NCBI RefSeq assembly: GCF_009177065.1
Contig: NZ_WEZF01000012.1
Coordinates: 62,001-126,000 of the forward strand
Source: Tautonia marina
GTDB lineage: Bacteria; Planctomycetota; Planctomycetia; Isosphaerales; Isosphaeraceae
DNA: 64,000 nt
Direction of reading: 5' to 3'
Shown here in pieces: positions 18,169 through 25,331 of this stretch (the first letter of the stretch is position 1; each line of letters opens with the position of its first letter). A model generated the notes under the pieces. It saw only the letters and a list, made by a program, of their open reading frames with translations, did not search any database and was not told the DNA's origin. Made by a program: the position numbers and the translations under genes.

Positions 18169-18816
18169 TCACTCGTCAAGTGGAGTCAGGACGATCTCTC
18201 GAAACTCGATCGGTGCTCCTTCGGACTGAAGCGAGATGGCTCCCGCCGTCACCGAGCAATCGGATGCCTCGTTGACAAGGTCTCCGTTGACCGTAACGGT
18301 AATCCGATCTTTCTGACAAACGATCACCATCGTGTTCCACTCACCAATGGGATTTTCGGAATCATCGGTGAGGTTCAGGTGACGACGCCCCATCTTGCGC
18401 TCTTCTTCATTCTTAACATTCAGATCGGTCCCGATGACCCAAAAGTCCCCAGCATCTCCTCGGTGCAGTTGGACCTCAATCGACTTCGGCCAGATCCCGA
18501 TCGCCCCGGGCTCTGATGTATGAACGAGCACTCCGCTGTTTCCCCCCTGGCTTCCCTGAGGAAATCTCCATTGGAGTGACAATTCATAATTGCTGTACTC
18601 CTTCTCTGTCTTGATGTATCCAACAGGCTGGCCCTTGCAGTGTAAAACCCCGTCGTGAACGCTCCAGACATCCTCAGCCTTGGCATTCTCATCTGCCAGA
18701 ACTGCAGTCCAACCACTCAGATCGTTCCCGTTGAACAGGGCAACTGGCTCGCCTGCCAGGGCAAGGCAAGGGGAGAGGATCACGAGGAACGCAATCAGAG
18801 TTCGCGAGTTCATCAT
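18169..18816 (-). CDS. Secreted DUF1080 / 3-keto-disaccharide hydrolase-like protein
   Basis: The 215-residue protein has a Sec signal peptide (MMNSRTLIAFLVILSPCLALA) and one DUF1080 domain: ALFNGNDLSGWTAV at the start, WSVHDGVLHC, YELSLQWRFPQGSQGGNSGVL with an LVHT continuation, and EVQLHRGDAGDFWVIG. This concanavalin-like fold family is hugely expanded in planctomycetes, and some members are described as 3-keto-disaccharide hydrolases that cleave oxidised sugars in the periplasm. The domain fills nearly the whole protein, as in the single-domain members. The same domain occurs again in the large fusion protein at 22874-25000, which suggests related sugar catabolism in this region. Confidence 0.85.
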   Translation of the reverse strand: MMNSRTLIAFLVILSPCLALAGEPVALFNGNDLSGWTAVLADENAKAEDVWSVHDGVLHCKGQPVGYIKTEKEYSNYELSLQWRFPQGSQGGNSGVLVHTSEPGAIGIWPKSIEVQLHRGDAGDFWVIGTDLNVKNEEERKMGRRHLNLTDDSENPIGEWNTMVIVCQKDRITVTVNGDLVNEASDCSVTAGAISLQSEGAPIEFREIVLTPLDE

Positions 18817-19082: not shown

Positions 19083-21332
19083 ATGAAATCGACCAACCAT
19101 GTGAGCCGTCGCGCCGCGTTACAGGCCTTCTCCTCGACCATGATGGCCGGGAGCGTTTCCGGCGTTTGGCCTGCCGCGACCCTCTGGGCTCAGGAAAAAG
19201 CTCAGGGACCTCCTCGCGTCCTTCCCGAAGCAGAATTTCCGGACGATCCTCGCCTCGGCCCCCTCAAGGATTTGAATGGCGACTTCCCATTTCATGTCCC
19301 TGAGTCACTTGAGCAGTGGCAGGTCAGGGCCGACGAGGTTCGCCGACGCATTCTCGTCTCAGCTGGTCTCTGGCCCATGCCCACAATGCCAGAGTTGATC
19401 CCGGTCATTCACGGTACGGTCGATCGCGAAGAATACACCGTCGATAAAGTCTATTTTGAGAGCGTGCCGGGCTTGTACGTGACAGGTAGCCTTTACCGAC
19501 CCAAAGGTATCGAGGGTCCGAAGCCGGCCGTCCTCAGTCCCCATGGGCACTGGTCGGAGGGGCGATTCCACGACCACGGCGAGGACGTCGTGCGGCAAGA
19601 ACTCGAGTCGGGCGCAGAACGGTTCGAGGTCGGTGGACGTCATCCACTCCAGGCCCGATGTGTTCAACTCGCCCGCATGGGCTGCGTCGTGTTTCTCTAC
19701 GACATGCTAGGCTATGCAGACAGTGTTCCCATCACCTTCGAGATCGCTCATGGGTTTTCCCGCCAGCGACCAAGCCTGAGCAGTCCTAATCGTTGGGGAC
19801 TCTTCAGCGCTCAAGCTGAACTTCGGCTCCAAAATGTTCTTGGATTGCAATTACTGAACTCGATCCGAGCGCTCGACTTTCTGTCCGATTTACCTGATGT
19901 AGACCCGACTCGTATAGCCGTGACCGGTGCGAGTGGTGGAGGAACTCAGACCTTCCTACTGTCAGCCGTGGACCCTCGTCCCGCCGCAGCCTTTCCTGCA
20001 GTGATGGTTTCGACTGCAATGCAAGGAGGGTGCACATGCGAAAATGCAACCTATCTCCGAATCGGAACAGGAAATGTCGAGTTTGCCGCGCTCTTCGCTC
20101 CTCGACCACTGGGACTCACCGGCGCAAACGATTGGACCCGGGAGATCGAAACCAAAGGACTCCCCGAGCTGAAGCGCCTTTATGAACTTGCGAACGCTCC
20201 AGGAAATGTCATCGCTCGGTACTTTGACTTCGGGCACAATTACAACGCTCAAAGCCGGGCAATGATGTACAGCTTCATGGCAGAGCAACTCGGGCTTGGC
20301 CCCGATGTCTCGCTTGAAGAACGCGATTACATTCCGTTAACCCGGGAGGAAGCAACTGTCTGGAATGAAGGGCATCCCAAGCCGCCAACAGACGAGGACG
20401 CCGAGGTTCGACTTCTCACCCTGCTCGATGCCGATTCTCACTCGAAGATGGCCGATCTTCGACCTATCGACACTGATAAACTCCTCGAATTTCAAAAAAT
20501 CGTCGGAGGAGCGATCAGAACGATGGTCGGGCGATCATTCCCCGAAGCAGGAGATGTCGTCTATGACAAGCACCGAGAGATCGATCGAGGCGACTGGCTC
20601 GAAACGCTCGCCTTGTTACGCTATGAGCCTGAAGCTGAGCTCGTTCCCACCGTCTTTCTCTATCCCAAGTCCTACCGTGGGAGAGTTGTGGTCTGGGTGG
20701 ACGAAGCCGGCAAGTCTTCACTCTACGACAAAGACGGCCAACCTATCGGTCCCGTTCGACGACTCATGGACCAGGGGATCGCCGTCGTCGGTTGTGATCT
20801 CCTCGATCAAGGAGAGTGGCTCAAGGACGACCCCCGGACTCAATCACGAACCGTCGAGAATCCCCGGGAGTTTCTTGGGTACACACTAGGATATAACCAT
20901 CCGCTGTTTGCACAACGAGTCCATGATTTGCTTTCCGTTCTCGCCTTCGTTCGACACCATGACTTTAGCCCTGGGCGTGTTGAACTCGTGGCTCTGAGTG
21001 GAGCCGGTCGTTGGGCCGCGGCTGCCGCGGCTGTGGCCACCGGAACTCTGGATGCCATTGCTCTCGGGACCAACGGTTACCGGTTCGGTCGGATCATCGA
21101 CCACCGCGATCCCGATCTTTGGCCAGGCGCCTTGAAGTACGGTGATCTTCCGAGTCTCCTCGCGCTCTGCGCTCCTACACCACTCTGGGTCTCAGGGGAG
21201 GGAAACCAACTTCCCGACATCATCCTCGACGCCTATCGCGCGACGGCAGGTCCGAGACCCGATTCCTTCATCGGTGGTGAGCCGCAAGACGAACGTGAGA
21301 CCGCAGTCACCTGGCTCCTTGATCGCCAGTGA
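19083..21332 (+). CDS. Tat-exported protein with two alpha/beta hydrolase domains
   Basis: This 749-residue protein begins with a twin-arginine signal (SRRAALQAFSSTMMAGSVSG). The first half (about 80-410) is an acetylxylan-esterase/dienelactone-hydrolase-like domain: YRPKGIEGPKPAVLSPHGH, a nucleophile elbow in VTGASGGGTQTF, and DFGHNYNAQSR carrying the likely catalytic His. The second half (about 510-749) repeats the fold with LVALSGAGRWAAAAAAV and PTPLWVSGEG, but I see no obvious catalytic His at its end, so it may be structural or degenerate. It is probably an extracytoplasmic carbohydrate esterase. The start ATG 19083 follows GAGGAG at a rather long distance, and a dyad lies in the leader. 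A terminator-like 12-bp hairpin follows. Confidence 0.82.
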   Translation: MKSTNHVSRRAALQAFSSTMMAGSVSGVWPAATLWAQEKAQGPPRVLPEAEFPDDPRLGPLKDLNGDFPFHVPESLEQWQVRADEVRRRILVSAGLWPMPTMPELIPVIHGTVDREEYTVDKVYFESVPGLYVTGSLYRPKGIEGPKPAVLSPHGHWSEGRFHDHGEDVVRQELESGAERFEVGGRHPLQARCVQLARMGCVVFLYDMLGYADSVPITFEIAHGFSRQRPSLSSPNRWGLFSAQAELRLQNVLGLQLLNSIRALDFLSDLPDVDPTRIAVTGASGGGTQTFLLSAVDPRPAAAFPAVMVSTAMQGGCTCENATYLRIGTGNVEFAALFAPRPLGLTGANDWTREIETKGLPELKRLYELANAPGNVIARYFDFGHNYNAQSRAMMYSFMAEQLGLGPDVSLEERDYIPLTREEATVWNEGHPKPPTDEDAEVRLLTLLDADSHSKMADLRPIDTDKLLEFQKIVGGAIRTMVGRSFPEAGDVVYDKHREIDRGDWLETLALLRYEPEAELVPTVFLYPKSYRGRVVVWVDEAGKSSLYDKDGQPIGPVRRLMDQGIAVVGCDLLDQGEWLKDDPRTQSRTVENPREFLGYTLGYNHPLFAQRVHDLLSVLAFVRHHDFSPGRVELVALSGAGRWAAAAAAVATGTLDAIALGTNGYRFGRIIDHRDPDLWPGALKYGDLPSLLALCAPTPLWVSGEGNQLPDIILDAYRATAGPRPDSFIGGEPQDERETAVTWLLDRQ

Positions 21333-22272: not shown

Positions 22273-22839
22273 TCATTCATCGTCGTCGTCTTGATGGGTC
22301 TTGATCGATTCGAGAAGCCGAGCGATCCCTGCTCGAGCGATCTCGGCGTCCTGTTCTCCCGTCGCGCCACCTACTCCAACTCCACCGAGGATCTGCCCCT
22401 CGACGACGATCGGTACGCCTCCGTAGAGGGTCGTCACCGTCCCCCCGGATGCCGACGCAGTGAGTTGAAGACTGACGTTGAGCAGAACATCGGGAATTTC
22501 GACTCCAGGGGGGACCGGACCAGTCGGTTGCCGAAGTGTTGCTGCAGCGATGGCCTTGGTCATCGAGGTATACGAACTGGCCGAGCGGGCGCCGTCCATT
22601 CGTGCAAAGGCAATCGGGTGGCCGCCGTCATCGACGACGGTGATATTCACCTTCAAGCCCATCGCTTTGGCCTGATCTTGGGCCCCCTCGAGAATCGTCT
22701 GGGCGCCTCCGAGCATCAGGCGAATGCCTCCCCGCTCGATCATCGGCTCAGCTTCGTCTGATTCCTGTGCGGATCCGACCTGAACCGCAAGCAAGATCAA
22801 CAAGCCAGCCAAGGCTGTTTTAAACACTGGTTGGAACAT
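22273..22839 (-). CDS. Exported GlcG/HbpS-family (DUF336) protein
   Basis: The 188-residue product has a Sec signal (MFQPVFKTALAGLLILLAVQ) and a GlcG/HbpS domain: GLKVNITVVDDGGHPIAFAR, SYTSMTKAIAAATLR and a Gly-rich GGVPIVVEGQILGGVGVGGA. This fold binds small molecules or heme in HbpS and is linked to glycolate operons in GlcG; here it is exported, so a role in scavenging or sensing outside the cytoplasm is possible. GAGGA lies 8 bases before ATG 22839; ATG 22854 in the same frame is an alternative. It lies between the large esterase fusion and the glutaminyl cyclase on the same strand. A highly acidic tail (HQDDDDE) ends the protein. Confidence 0.85.
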   Translation of the reverse strand: MFQPVFKTALAGLLILLAVQVGSAQESDEAEPMIERGGIRLMLGGAQTILEGAQDQAKAMGLKVNITVVDDGGHPIAFARMDGARSASSYTSMTKAIAAATLRQPTGPVPPGVEIPDVLLNVSLQLTASASGGTVTTLYGGVPIVVEGQILGGVGVGGATGEQDAEIARAGIARLLESIKTHQDDDDE

Positions 22840-22873
22840 GCGATCATTCCTCATTTCACTTCGAGTCTGCGAA

Positions 22874-25000
22874 TTAGGGAGTAATTCGGCGAGGTTTGAG
22901 CATCCACTCGACCAGTTCCGGTTCGGCATACGCCCGGTCCCAGCTATTGTGGCCAACCCCGCGATATTCCGTATAACGGACTGGTGCGCCAATGTCCTTG
23001 AGGGATCGGGCCATCTCACGCATGCCAGCCACGAAGGGAGCGCGGTCTTCGTCCCCCACGAATCCCCAGGTCGGAATGGTCCGAATCGACTCGACCTGCG
23101 CGGGTTCCCCCGGACCACAGATCGGCACCAGTGCCGAGAATCGATCGGGATAGGTGGTTGCAAGGGACCAGGTTCCCATCCCTCCCATCGAAAGCCCGGT
23201 CAGCACAATACGACTGGTATCCACGGCGAAATCGGAAATGACCTCGTCAAGAATCGCCATCGCTCGTTCCCCATCGGGCGAAGCGGCCGACCAGGTTTCT
23301 CGAGCTTGTGGGAACACGGCGAGATAAGGATGACCCGAGGGATTTGAGGCGATACTCGGGCCTAGTCCGACCTGACTCGGAACCACCCCGTCATCGCCTC
23401 GTTCTCCCGCCCCATGCAGAAAGAGAACAACTGGGAACTTTTGAACACCGTCGTACCCATCGGGTACGAACACCGAGTAACGAGCGCCTTGCTCAGTCCG
23501 CAGACGACGAAGATGGAATCCCGGCTTCTTGGAATCTCCGTTCGTGATCGGCCGAGGTAAGGGCTGGACCAGCAGGTCTTTGAAGTGGATCTCCATCGGG
23601 TCTCCGGAATGGAGCTGGACTGCAATACGGCCCGTCTGAGGAATCTCCTGGTCCGTTTCGAGATAATCCACCGAGGGGACACTGTTAAGACTCAGTCGGA
23701 TTTGATTCCCCATTGCTCGAATGACATATTGATTCCAGCCATCGAGCCGAACGGAGGCTCTCGCTCGATCAGATGCAGTCTCCAGCACACGATTCCGTCT
23801 CGATTCGTCGTAGAGGCAACCCCAGTAATTTTCACCGATATCAGCCTGATAGCCAATCATTTCGTGACCGGCAGTCCGTTCGCTCCGGAACTGAATTCCA
23901 CTATTCCCTTCTCCATCAACCAGCCGAAACGTGCAGCGAAAGTAGAAGTCTCCGAAACGATCTTCCGTCGCAAGGAACTCGTTCCGCTCAAGTCCCGGAG
24001 ACAACCCCACGAGCATCCCGTCGCGAACGGACCAAAGTGTGTCATCCCCTTCCCAGCCCGTCAGATCCCGGCCGTTGAACATGGGAATGAATCCGGCCGT
24101 TTCAATCACGGGTGGTAATCCTTCGAGCTGATCTGCCCAGCGGAGAAGGATCGTGGCCATGTAGGTTCCACCGAGGGTCGCGTCGTTTTGTTGCGGACTG
24201 GGAGCATAGCCACCGTCCTCCCGACGGCACTCTGCGACAAATCCGCGAAGGGCGTCGAGATCAGGAGCCACTCCCAGCATGTACGCAGCCCGCATGACTC
24301 GGTACGAGGCAGAGAGATCTGTTCCACCTTCTCCCTGGGTCCATCCCCCATCGGCCTGCTGACCAGCCAGAATCGCGTTGATGACGACCTCTCGACGGTC
24401 CAGAGCATGGTCCATTCGAAGCAATGCCGCCGCGGTACCGCCCGTATCGAAGGCGAGACTCGGCCCTTCACCCCATGTCCCGTCGTCGTTGCGTGAATCG
24501 AGGAGTTCCCTGGTCCACTCCTGAGCTTTCGGCGACGGACGACCCACCGCCTCGAAACCGGCAATCGCGATGCGCACCTCGGGGAACGATTCCGCATGAA
24601 TCGAGAGGTACTCGGAGGCCCTCCTGAGGAGTTCCTCGTTCTCAATTCTCAGCTCGCTGAGAGCCATGAAGCCTGATGCCGTTGAGCCAACGTCCGCGGC
24701 TCCACCAGGAGTTTGTGCAAAGCCGCCGGACTCCGGATCGAAACAGGACCGGACGAAGTCGAGACAGGCCAAAACGTCGGGGATTGAACCTGTCGTGTAT
24801 CGAAGAACCCGAACTGCAGCCGTTGTTGCACCGAGCGAGGATGGCCCCCCCGGTTCTGCAGCAAAACCGCCATCAGGATTCTGTCGTTGCGCGGCGAATT
24901 GGGCCGTCGCGTCACGATCAATGACGCTGAGCGACTGGGCCGCCGCAGGCGAAGCGAGGATCGCCAAGCATGCGAAGGCGCCGACCAGGTTTGGCTTCAT
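22874..25000 (-). CDS. Secreted three-part fusion: terpenoid-cyclase-like toroid, DUF1080, carboxylesterase
   Basis: The 708-residue protein has a Sec signal (MKPNLVGAFACLAILASPAAA) and three modules. Residues about 25-300 contain prenyltransferase/squalene-cyclase-like repeats (QNPDGGFA, PESGGFAQ, NDDGTWGEG, QADGGWTQGEGG, REDGGYAPS), an alpha/alpha toroid without the DXDD-type catalytic motif. Residues about 303-488 are a DUF1080 domain (FNGRDLTGWEGDDTLWSV, YRVDG-type GNSGIQFRS). Residues about 490-708 are an alpha/beta hydrolase of the polyesterase/phospholipase-carboxylesterase type with an oxyanion FLHGAGERGDDG, Ser604 in GLSMGGMGTWS and His in GVGHNSWDRAY. It is likely an extracytoplasmic esterase on complex carbohydrates. 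The frame is open to 25198; ATG 25000 places the signal peptide at the N-terminus. Confidence 0.85.
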   Translation of the reverse strand: MKPNLVGAFACLAILASPAAAQSLSVIDRDATAQFAAQRQNPDGGFAAEPGGPSSLGATTAAVRVLRYTTGSIPDVLACLDFVRSCFDPESGGFAQTPGGAADVGSTASGFMALSELRIENEELLRRASEYLSIHAESFPEVRIAIAGFEAVGRPSPKAQEWTRELLDSRNDDGTWGEGPSLAFDTGGTAAALLRMDHALDRREVVINAILAGQQADGGWTQGEGGTDLSASYRVMRAAYMLGVAPDLDALRGFVAECRREDGGYAPSPQQNDATLGGTYMATILLRWADQLEGLPPVIETAGFIPMFNGRDLTGWEGDDTLWSVRDGMLVGLSPGLERNEFLATEDRFGDFYFRCTFRLVDGEGNSGIQFRSERTAGHEMIGYQADIGENYWGCLYDESRRNRVLETASDRARASVRLDGWNQYVIRAMGNQIRLSLNSVPSVDYLETDQEIPQTGRIAVQLHSGDPMEIHFKDLLVQPLPRPITNGDSKKPGFHLRRLRTEQGARYSVFVPDGYDGVQKFPVVLFLHGAGERGDDGVVPSQVGLGPSIASNPSGHPYLAVFPQARETWSAASPDGERAMAILDEVISDFAVDTSRIVLTGLSMGGMGTWSLATTYPDRFSALVPICGPGEPAQVESIRTIPTWGFVGDEDRAPFVAGMREMARSLKDIGAPVRYTEYRGVGHNSWDRAYAEPELVEWMLKPRRITP

Positions 25001-25331
25001 GGCGACTCGATGGGCTCGATGAAGTGGTTCGATGGTGCAAAAACGGACAAGCCGGATGTTGGCGACAGGTTCGTTCCGAACCGAAGTCCCCCGCCACTCA
25101 CGACTCGTTTCGCTTCGAGAGATTCCTTCGCTCAGTGTAGCAGGACTTTCCGAAGGGGATAAGTCTCGTGCCCGCAACACTCCTCCTTCGATCTCCACTC
25201 TCTCGATTGCACGCTGTTGCGAATCATTCTTCCGAACTCAACACAAAACGCCGCGCAGAGGAACCCTTTCGGATTCCAGCGCGGCGATTGAGCTGTGTCA
25301 GCGGATTTCGAAGCGAAGGCGATCAAGTCCG

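Follow-up and report, generated by a model that had tools for sequence, protein, structure and literature searches.

Proteins with a DUF1080 domain have been linked to the breakdown of sugars that carry a keto group at C3. BT2157, a DUF1080 protein, is described as a 3-ketotrehalose hydrolase, and DUF1080 enzymes probably also act on 3'-ketolactose; the same source reports one DUF1080 protein as an endo-xanthanase/lichenase, which is a different activity (PMC9007349). In a Bacteroides 3-keto-glycoside lyase, the H275N substitution is reported to abolish hydration activity (PMC13273386). Deletions of BT2157 and BT2158 are reported to cause no raffinose-family growth defect (PMC11501099), and the role of this operon is therefore not simple. 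In the 3-keto-glycoside operon of Agrobacterium, a Gfo oxidoreductase is described as reducing 3-keto-glucose (PMC10628242). Planctomycetes are rich in DUF1080 proteins (PMC5673643, PMC5352709), and few DUF1080 activities have been tested. DUF1080 and CBM66 annotations are also noted to overlap (PMC5673643). Like the protein analyzed here, the DUF1080 proteins of Thermogutta terrifontis belong to a planctomycete, are of exported type and are abundant per genome, and the passages of PMC5673643 that deal with them do not mention a fusion to a toroid or an esterase.

The window, a 64,000-nucleotide stretch of the Tautonia marina genome (contig NZ_WEZF01000012.1), contains a minus-strand gene (22874..25000) that encodes a toroid, a DUF1080 domain and an esterase in a single protein of 708 aa; all features of this gene given below lie on the same strand. 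The gene was assigned an ATG start at 25000 and a stop that ends at 22874, consistent with the orthologous full-length frames. The mechanical open reading frame is longer and reaches a GTG at 25198, upstream of this ATG. The protein begins with MKPNLVGAFACLAILASPAAAQ. Residues 1-21 (24938..25000) resemble a signal peptide, as they comprise a hydrophobic run followed by AAAQ and were modelled with low pLDDT. N-terminal hydrophobic runs are alike in nearly all of the 30 orthologues, two of which are cut by contig ends. Judged from this signal-peptide-like start, the 708-aa protein is predicted to be exported. An AlphaFold2 model was built from an input alignment of 37 sequences (mean pLDDT 91.3, pTM 0.88) and predicts three folded domains. 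Fold matches for each domain were obtained by structural comparison against 1000 Foldseek-selected PDB chains. Each of the domains is already known, and what is new is their architecture in one protein. No description of a toroid-DUF1080-esterase fusion was found in the portions of the literature on DUF1080, 3-keto-glycosides or planctomycete toroids that were searched. The Tautonia marina genome contains 25 DUF1080 stretches, and the toroid Pfam cut-off was passed by the studied frame only.

An earlier note, made from the letters of the window, had described three modules in one exported protein and had set beforehand a test for the merger of separate genes by a sequencing error. A search was performed in 59 genomes, including that of Tautonia marina, of which 37 represent the same family and 22 represent other families of the same class. 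The family is the Isosphaeraceae, as indicated by records named Tautonia, Singulisphaera, Paludisphaera and Aquisphaera. The three-domain frame was open in 29 of the 37 family genomes, some of which are complete or near-complete assemblies. Three genomes (G009, G026 and G035) encode the toroid and DUF1080 without the esterase, and in one (G018) the frame is cut by a contig end and contains the toroid only. The remaining four (G010, G012, G027 and G034), each at most 81% complete, gave no multi-domain match. Among the matches listed for the 22 genomes outside the family, none spans more than one domain, and in a phylum-wide sample only two of 392 genomes matched at E <= 1e-90, both of the same family. 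A merger by sequencing error was ruled out by the open frame in the 29 family genomes. These results, together with the Pfam matches and the AlphaFold2 model, confirmed that the three-domain protein is real and not a frame artefact. Outside the Isosphaeraceae, the toroid, DUF1080 and esterase are encoded by separate genes.

Conservation was assessed per domain in 30 orthologues, the window protein included. Mean identity to the window protein was 0.51 for the toroid (29 relatives), 0.60 for DUF1080 and 0.55 for the esterase, and the invariant columns numbered 28 of 274, 38 of 178 and 35 of 211, respectively. By invariant columns, DUF1080 is the most conserved of the three domains. Relative to the nearest relative (G003), dN/dS was 0.081 for the toroid, 0.065 for DUF1080 and 0.077 for the esterase, compared to 0.43 for the 21-codon signal region, and two further members of the genus gave 0.146 and 0.101 for the toroid; all of these values are rough, as dS is near or past saturation. 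Purifying selection acts on the toroid, DUF1080 and the esterase. The toroid, on whose conservation the earlier note had made its description depend, is thus retained both across the relatives and within the genus (dN/dS 0.08-0.15).

The toroid comprises residues 22-297 (24110..24937). It matched Prenyltrans (PF00432) above the curated Pfam cut-off (8.4e-19), and in the AlphaFold2 model the stretch from residue 26 to residue 292 holds 12 helices, which make up a full alpha6/alpha6 barrel. The best fold match was RabGGTase beta (4ehm; Z 24.6, 3.2 A, 267 residues, 18% identity), and farnesyltransferase beta gave a Z of about 23. The profile match to protein prenyltransferase beta (1.5e-15) was stronger than that to squalene/terpene cyclases. 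The domain had previously been called squalene-cyclase-like. The toroid fold was borne out, but by both fold and profile the domain is closer to protein prenyltransferase beta. It shares a single alpha6/alpha6 toroid with the beta subunits of RabGGTase and FTase; prenyltransferases, however, are intracellular protein modifiers, whereas the window toroid is part of an exported-type bacterial protein and lacks the conserved zinc-site Cys and His. The zinc ligands of protein prenyltransferases, which are Asp, Cys and His, were compared with the toroid in 23 sequences. Asp228 is invariant, position 230, the by-eye counterpart of the zinc Cys, is occupied by E/S/G/P/A, and in none of the toroid columns does His reach half of the sequences. 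Squalene-hopene and terpene cyclases have QxxDGGW/F-like repeats and the toroid fold in common with the window protein, but they have two toroids and the window protein has one. A conserved acidic DxDD motif is the hallmark of squalene-hopene cyclases. It is absent from the toroid, in which the nearest sequence is DTGG, with Asp185 replaced by Ala in 11 of the 23 sequences and present as Asp in nine. Protein prenyltransferase identity was ruled out by the unconserved zinc-site Cys and His, and squalene cyclase identity by the missing DxDD motif, in agreement with the previous observation that the toroid has no catalytic motif. The ring is most likely non-catalytic. With neither the Cys nor the His of the zinc site conserved, a binding or scaffold function is probable; this role had been raised before only as a possibility. 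The retained residues Arg143, Glu150, Tyr233, Arg234, Arg237, Tyr280 and Trp288 suggest that a surface or pocket has been kept.

Stand-alone toroid proteins homologous to the window toroid were found in another family (L112-L115 and L120), as open frames of 318-335 aa with signal-like N termini. At L112-L115, a divergent neighbour resembles an iron-containing alcohol dehydrogenase (Pfam, L113 only).

The toroid may instead handle an isoprenoid or other hydrophobic ligand, in which case the protein would act on lipid- or terpenoid-linked glycosides. The RabGGTase beta fold and profile matches, the conserved Tyr/Arg/Trp set and the occurrence of stand-alone exported-type toroids in another family are consistent with such a ligand. 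We consider this improbable, given the absence of a conserved His column and of DxDD, the variable Cys counterpart, and a gene neighbourhood with nothing related to isoprenoids. In addition, alpha/alpha toroids bind glycans in many lyases.

The second domain, DUF1080 or 3-keto-disaccharide hydrolase, comprises residues 300-482 (23555..24103) and belongs to an LYDESRRN subfamily. The 3keto-disac_hyd model (PF06439) matched residues 303-477 (6e-32; 111.6 bits versus a cut-off of 26.8). Fold matches were obtained to 4jqt (Z 23.5), 3hbk (21.2) and 3u1x (21.2), and to 9fbe, a 3-keto-glycoside eliminase/hydratase (Z 21.6; 172 residues at 2.5 A), so that the likeness to 3-keto-disaccharide hydrolases proposed earlier was upheld. 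Among 20 sequences, seven of them stand-alone, 39 columns are invariant and include Gln462 and His464; further invariant residues are Asn366, Gly368, Arg372, Gln385, Asp387, the YDESRRN run, Trp422 and Asn423. His464 may be the counterpart of the catalytic His275 of the Bacteroides lyase, a correspondence drawn from its matching spacing to the end of the domain and not from alignment. The domain has PF06439, a jelly-roll-type fold, by prediction export, and possibly the invariant Gln-x-His near the C-terminal strand in common with BT2157-type enzymes, 9fbe and 4jqt (BT3469). It differs from them in its LYDESRRN subfamily, in its position between a toroid and an esterase, and in the lack of a linked oxidoreductase at the locus. 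The CBM66 structure 4b1m is also near the DUF1080 domain. This argues against 3-keto cleavage, because a domain near CBM66 could bind instead of cleave.

The C-terminal domain, residues 501-705 (22886..23500), is a CE1/PHB-depolymerase-like alpha/beta-hydrolase, for which Esterase (PF00756), among other alpha/beta-hydrolase models, scored above its curated Pfam cut-off. An intact Ser and His had been noticed in this domain. Ser604 (GLSMGG; codon 23189..23191) and His684 (VGHNSWDRAY; codon 22949..22951) do not vary in any of the 16 aligned relatives, and neither does Asp650 (GDED; codon 23051..23053), which completes the catalytic triad. Fold matches were obtained to the thermostable esterase 3doh (Z 29.0), LC-Est1C 3wyd (26.5) and 4q82 (24.7). 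The fold, the GxSxG serine, the Asp and the His are common to all, but the window esterase has an HNSWDRAY signature and is the C-terminal part of a three-domain fusion. The matches also include feruloyl and acetyl-xylan esterases, some of which carry binding modules, such as the CBM48-CE1 protein 7b5v.

The best NCBIfam match of the esterase was the type-1 scl-PHA depolymerase model NF050058, and the PHB depolymerase 8daj was among the structure matches, as would be expected of a PHA-type polyester depolymerase that is secreted and carries accessory domains. This identity is very unlikely. NF050058 (57.3 bits, cut-off 150) and TIGR01840 (31.4 bits, cut-off 107.85) both remained below cut-off, the closest solved relatives are other esterases, and the fusion to DUF1080 and the Gfo context described below indicate sugars.

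A gene for a putatively exported HbpS-like protein (22273..22854; DUF336, PF03928, 6.1e-30, 104.3 bits versus a cut-off of 25) lies 3' of the fusion on the same strand, after a gap of about 19-34 bp that depends on the start codon. The earlier note makes no mention of this two-gene unit. This neighbour was present in 24 of 30 loci, and one of the six misses (L006) has only 141 nt downstream. In a partly overlapping named set it was present in 19 of 24 loci; two (L035 and L036) are cut off, and three (L042, L044 and L050) are without it. L050 (CAMBEP010000042.1) is titled Candidatus Kuenenia stuttgartiensis and encodes a protein of the Isosphaeraceae set, and this MAG title is probably wrong. 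A TPM domain precedes the HbpS-like domain in the three longer versions of the partner that were scanned (L034, L052 and L055). The Gemmataceae-like stand-alone homologues of the toroid, DUF1080 and esterase do not form a cluster; they are located on separate contigs or at large distances from each other, and their surroundings yielded no HbpS-like gene. According to the EfgA paper, proteins of this type are encoded within clusters of catabolic genes, in some of which toxic aldehydes arise as intermediates; EfgA is a formaldehyde sensor, and haem and cobalamin are ligands of HbpS and PduO (PMC8153426). On these grounds, a role of the HbpS-like partner in handling reactive carbonyl intermediates is a fair hypothesis, and no more.

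The forms without an esterase bear on which domain is the enzyme. A complete triad, matches to feruloyl and acetyl-xylan esterases that are in part fused to other modules, and the proximity of DUF1080 to CBM66 in both structure (4b1m) and annotation (PMC5673643) could all be accommodated by a secreted carbohydrate esterase, in which the esterase would be the sole enzyme, DUF1080 a CBM66-like lectin module and the toroid a spacer or docking domain. We regard this as a possible arrangement, although a rather unlikely one, since the three two-domain proteins that lack the esterase keep the toroid-DUF1080 pair and the HbpS-like neighbour, and since the most conserved domain is DUF1080, including Gln462 and His464. 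Neither tblastn nor a profile search in which stop codons were rendered as X detected a remnant of the esterase in the two-domain genes. A tree of DUF1080 domains places the two-domain pair within the three-domain proteins, next to Paludisphaera soli (support 92/78, below the starred level); loss of the esterase in the two-domain form is therefore favoured, but not proven. In the Aquisphaera group, the HbpS-like neighbour and the toroid-DUF1080 pair are kept and the esterase is absent without remnant. The esterase is thus dispensable, which counts against the reading of the fusion as a 3-keto-glycoside enzyme. The toroid-DUF1080 pair is the likelier functional core, because the esterase can be missing.

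Oxidoreductase genes were found beside stand-alone homologues of the fused domains. The esterase-only loci numbered 18, comprising 14 and a further four chosen from additional genomes, and two of them had less than 1 kb downstream. In seven of the 18 (L056, L057, L061 and L116-L119), a Gfo/Idh/MocA gene follows the esterase in the same orientation, at a distance of no more than ~200 bp. Pfam confirmed Gfo in the three esterase-linked loci scanned, each of which gave a TAT-signal match just under the cut-off. In four genomes, PF01408 was counted and found 27-35 times in each, an estimated one gene in roughly 150 to 250, and adjacency in seven of 18 loci is therefore well above chance, with the loci being related and not independent. 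DUF1080 of the same subfamily is fused to Gfo in three of 42 DUF1080-only loci (L091, L094 and L105; confirmed by Pfam), and a Gfo frame lies within ~400 bp in seven of the 42 (L070, L071, L073, L080, L081, L104 and L109). The three fusions apparently combine the oxidation and cleavage steps of the 3-keto pathway in one polypeptide. They are single proteins (L091:6090-8537, L094:6813-8543 and L105:6738-8561) from records titled Bryobacterales. At L061, two esterase genes are arranged in tandem upstream of Gfo.

An orthologue of the esterase-linked Gfo is encoded in the Tautonia marina genome (G000:C11:115206-116690; 56% identity, next best 33%); it is unlinked to the fusion, and an esterase of this kind is missing from its vicinity. 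No Gfo gene adjoins the fusion at the window locus. The LacABC-type subunit PF13618 was absent from the Tautonia marina genome (zero of one), which gave one GMC_oxred_C match. The unlinked Gfo orthologue, the lack of Gfo next to the fusion and the absence of PF13618 count against the 3-keto reading, as does the endo-xanthanase/lichenase activity reported for one DUF1080 protein. The Gfo links nevertheless indicate that the domains of the fusion recur in one functional company elsewhere, though the window locus is without an oxidoreductase. Taken as a whole, the evidence favours extracytoplasmic processing of 3-keto-glycosides coupled to deacylation, but does not prove it. The earlier note was right in substance in its description of the protein. 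Its idea of a multi-step attack on an esterified sugar is plausible and has genomic support, in that the Gfo links support a shared sugar pathway for DUF1080 and the esterase; the absence of the esterase from the Aquisphaera group speaks against a strict coupling of the two.

The explanation that we favour, tentatively, is that the protein is an exported fusion enzyme, specific to the Isosphaeraceae, with substituted glycosides outside the cytoplasm as its substrates. The 3-keto-glycoside would be supplied by a separate oxidoreductase, possibly of the Gfo/Idh/MocA type and from another locus, and the DUF1080 domain would cleave this C3-oxidised substrate. The CE1-like domain would remove an ester-linked acyl or aryl-ester group from the same substrate class, or act on the released part. 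The toroid would serve as a non-catalytic binding or docking domain that orients the substrate or a partner, with a ligand site that may be lined by the charged and aromatic residues conserved in it. The HbpS-like partner, likewise exported, may handle or sense the reactive carbonyl product or a cofactor.

A more elaborate scheme, to which we assign a low probability, is non-hydrolytic glycoside breakdown in the periplasm by one polypeptide, in which the ring would capture a hydrophobic or aryl part, the esterase would deacylate, DUF1080 would cleave, and a dedicated exported DUF336 protein would dispose of, or sense, the reactive 3-keto or enone product. If true, this scheme would represent a new coupling of deacylation to the 3-keto pathway and would give an exported prenyltransferase-like toroid its first role. 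The esterase fusion, taken together with the oxidoreductase fusions and operons found elsewhere, leads to the prediction that deacylation and the cleavage of 3-keto-glycosides are steps of one pathway. The fusion also offers a prenyltransferase-fold ring whose proposed use outside the cell without a metal site can be tested, and since all parts are single genes, each lends itself to expression and assay on its own.

Another DUF1080 gene, which encodes this domain alone behind a signal-like start, lies within a few kilobases of the fusion (18169-18816, minus strand). The plus-strand gene that adjoins it (19083-21332) encodes a protein of 749 aa, for which AXE1-like alpha/beta-hydrolase models gave matches.
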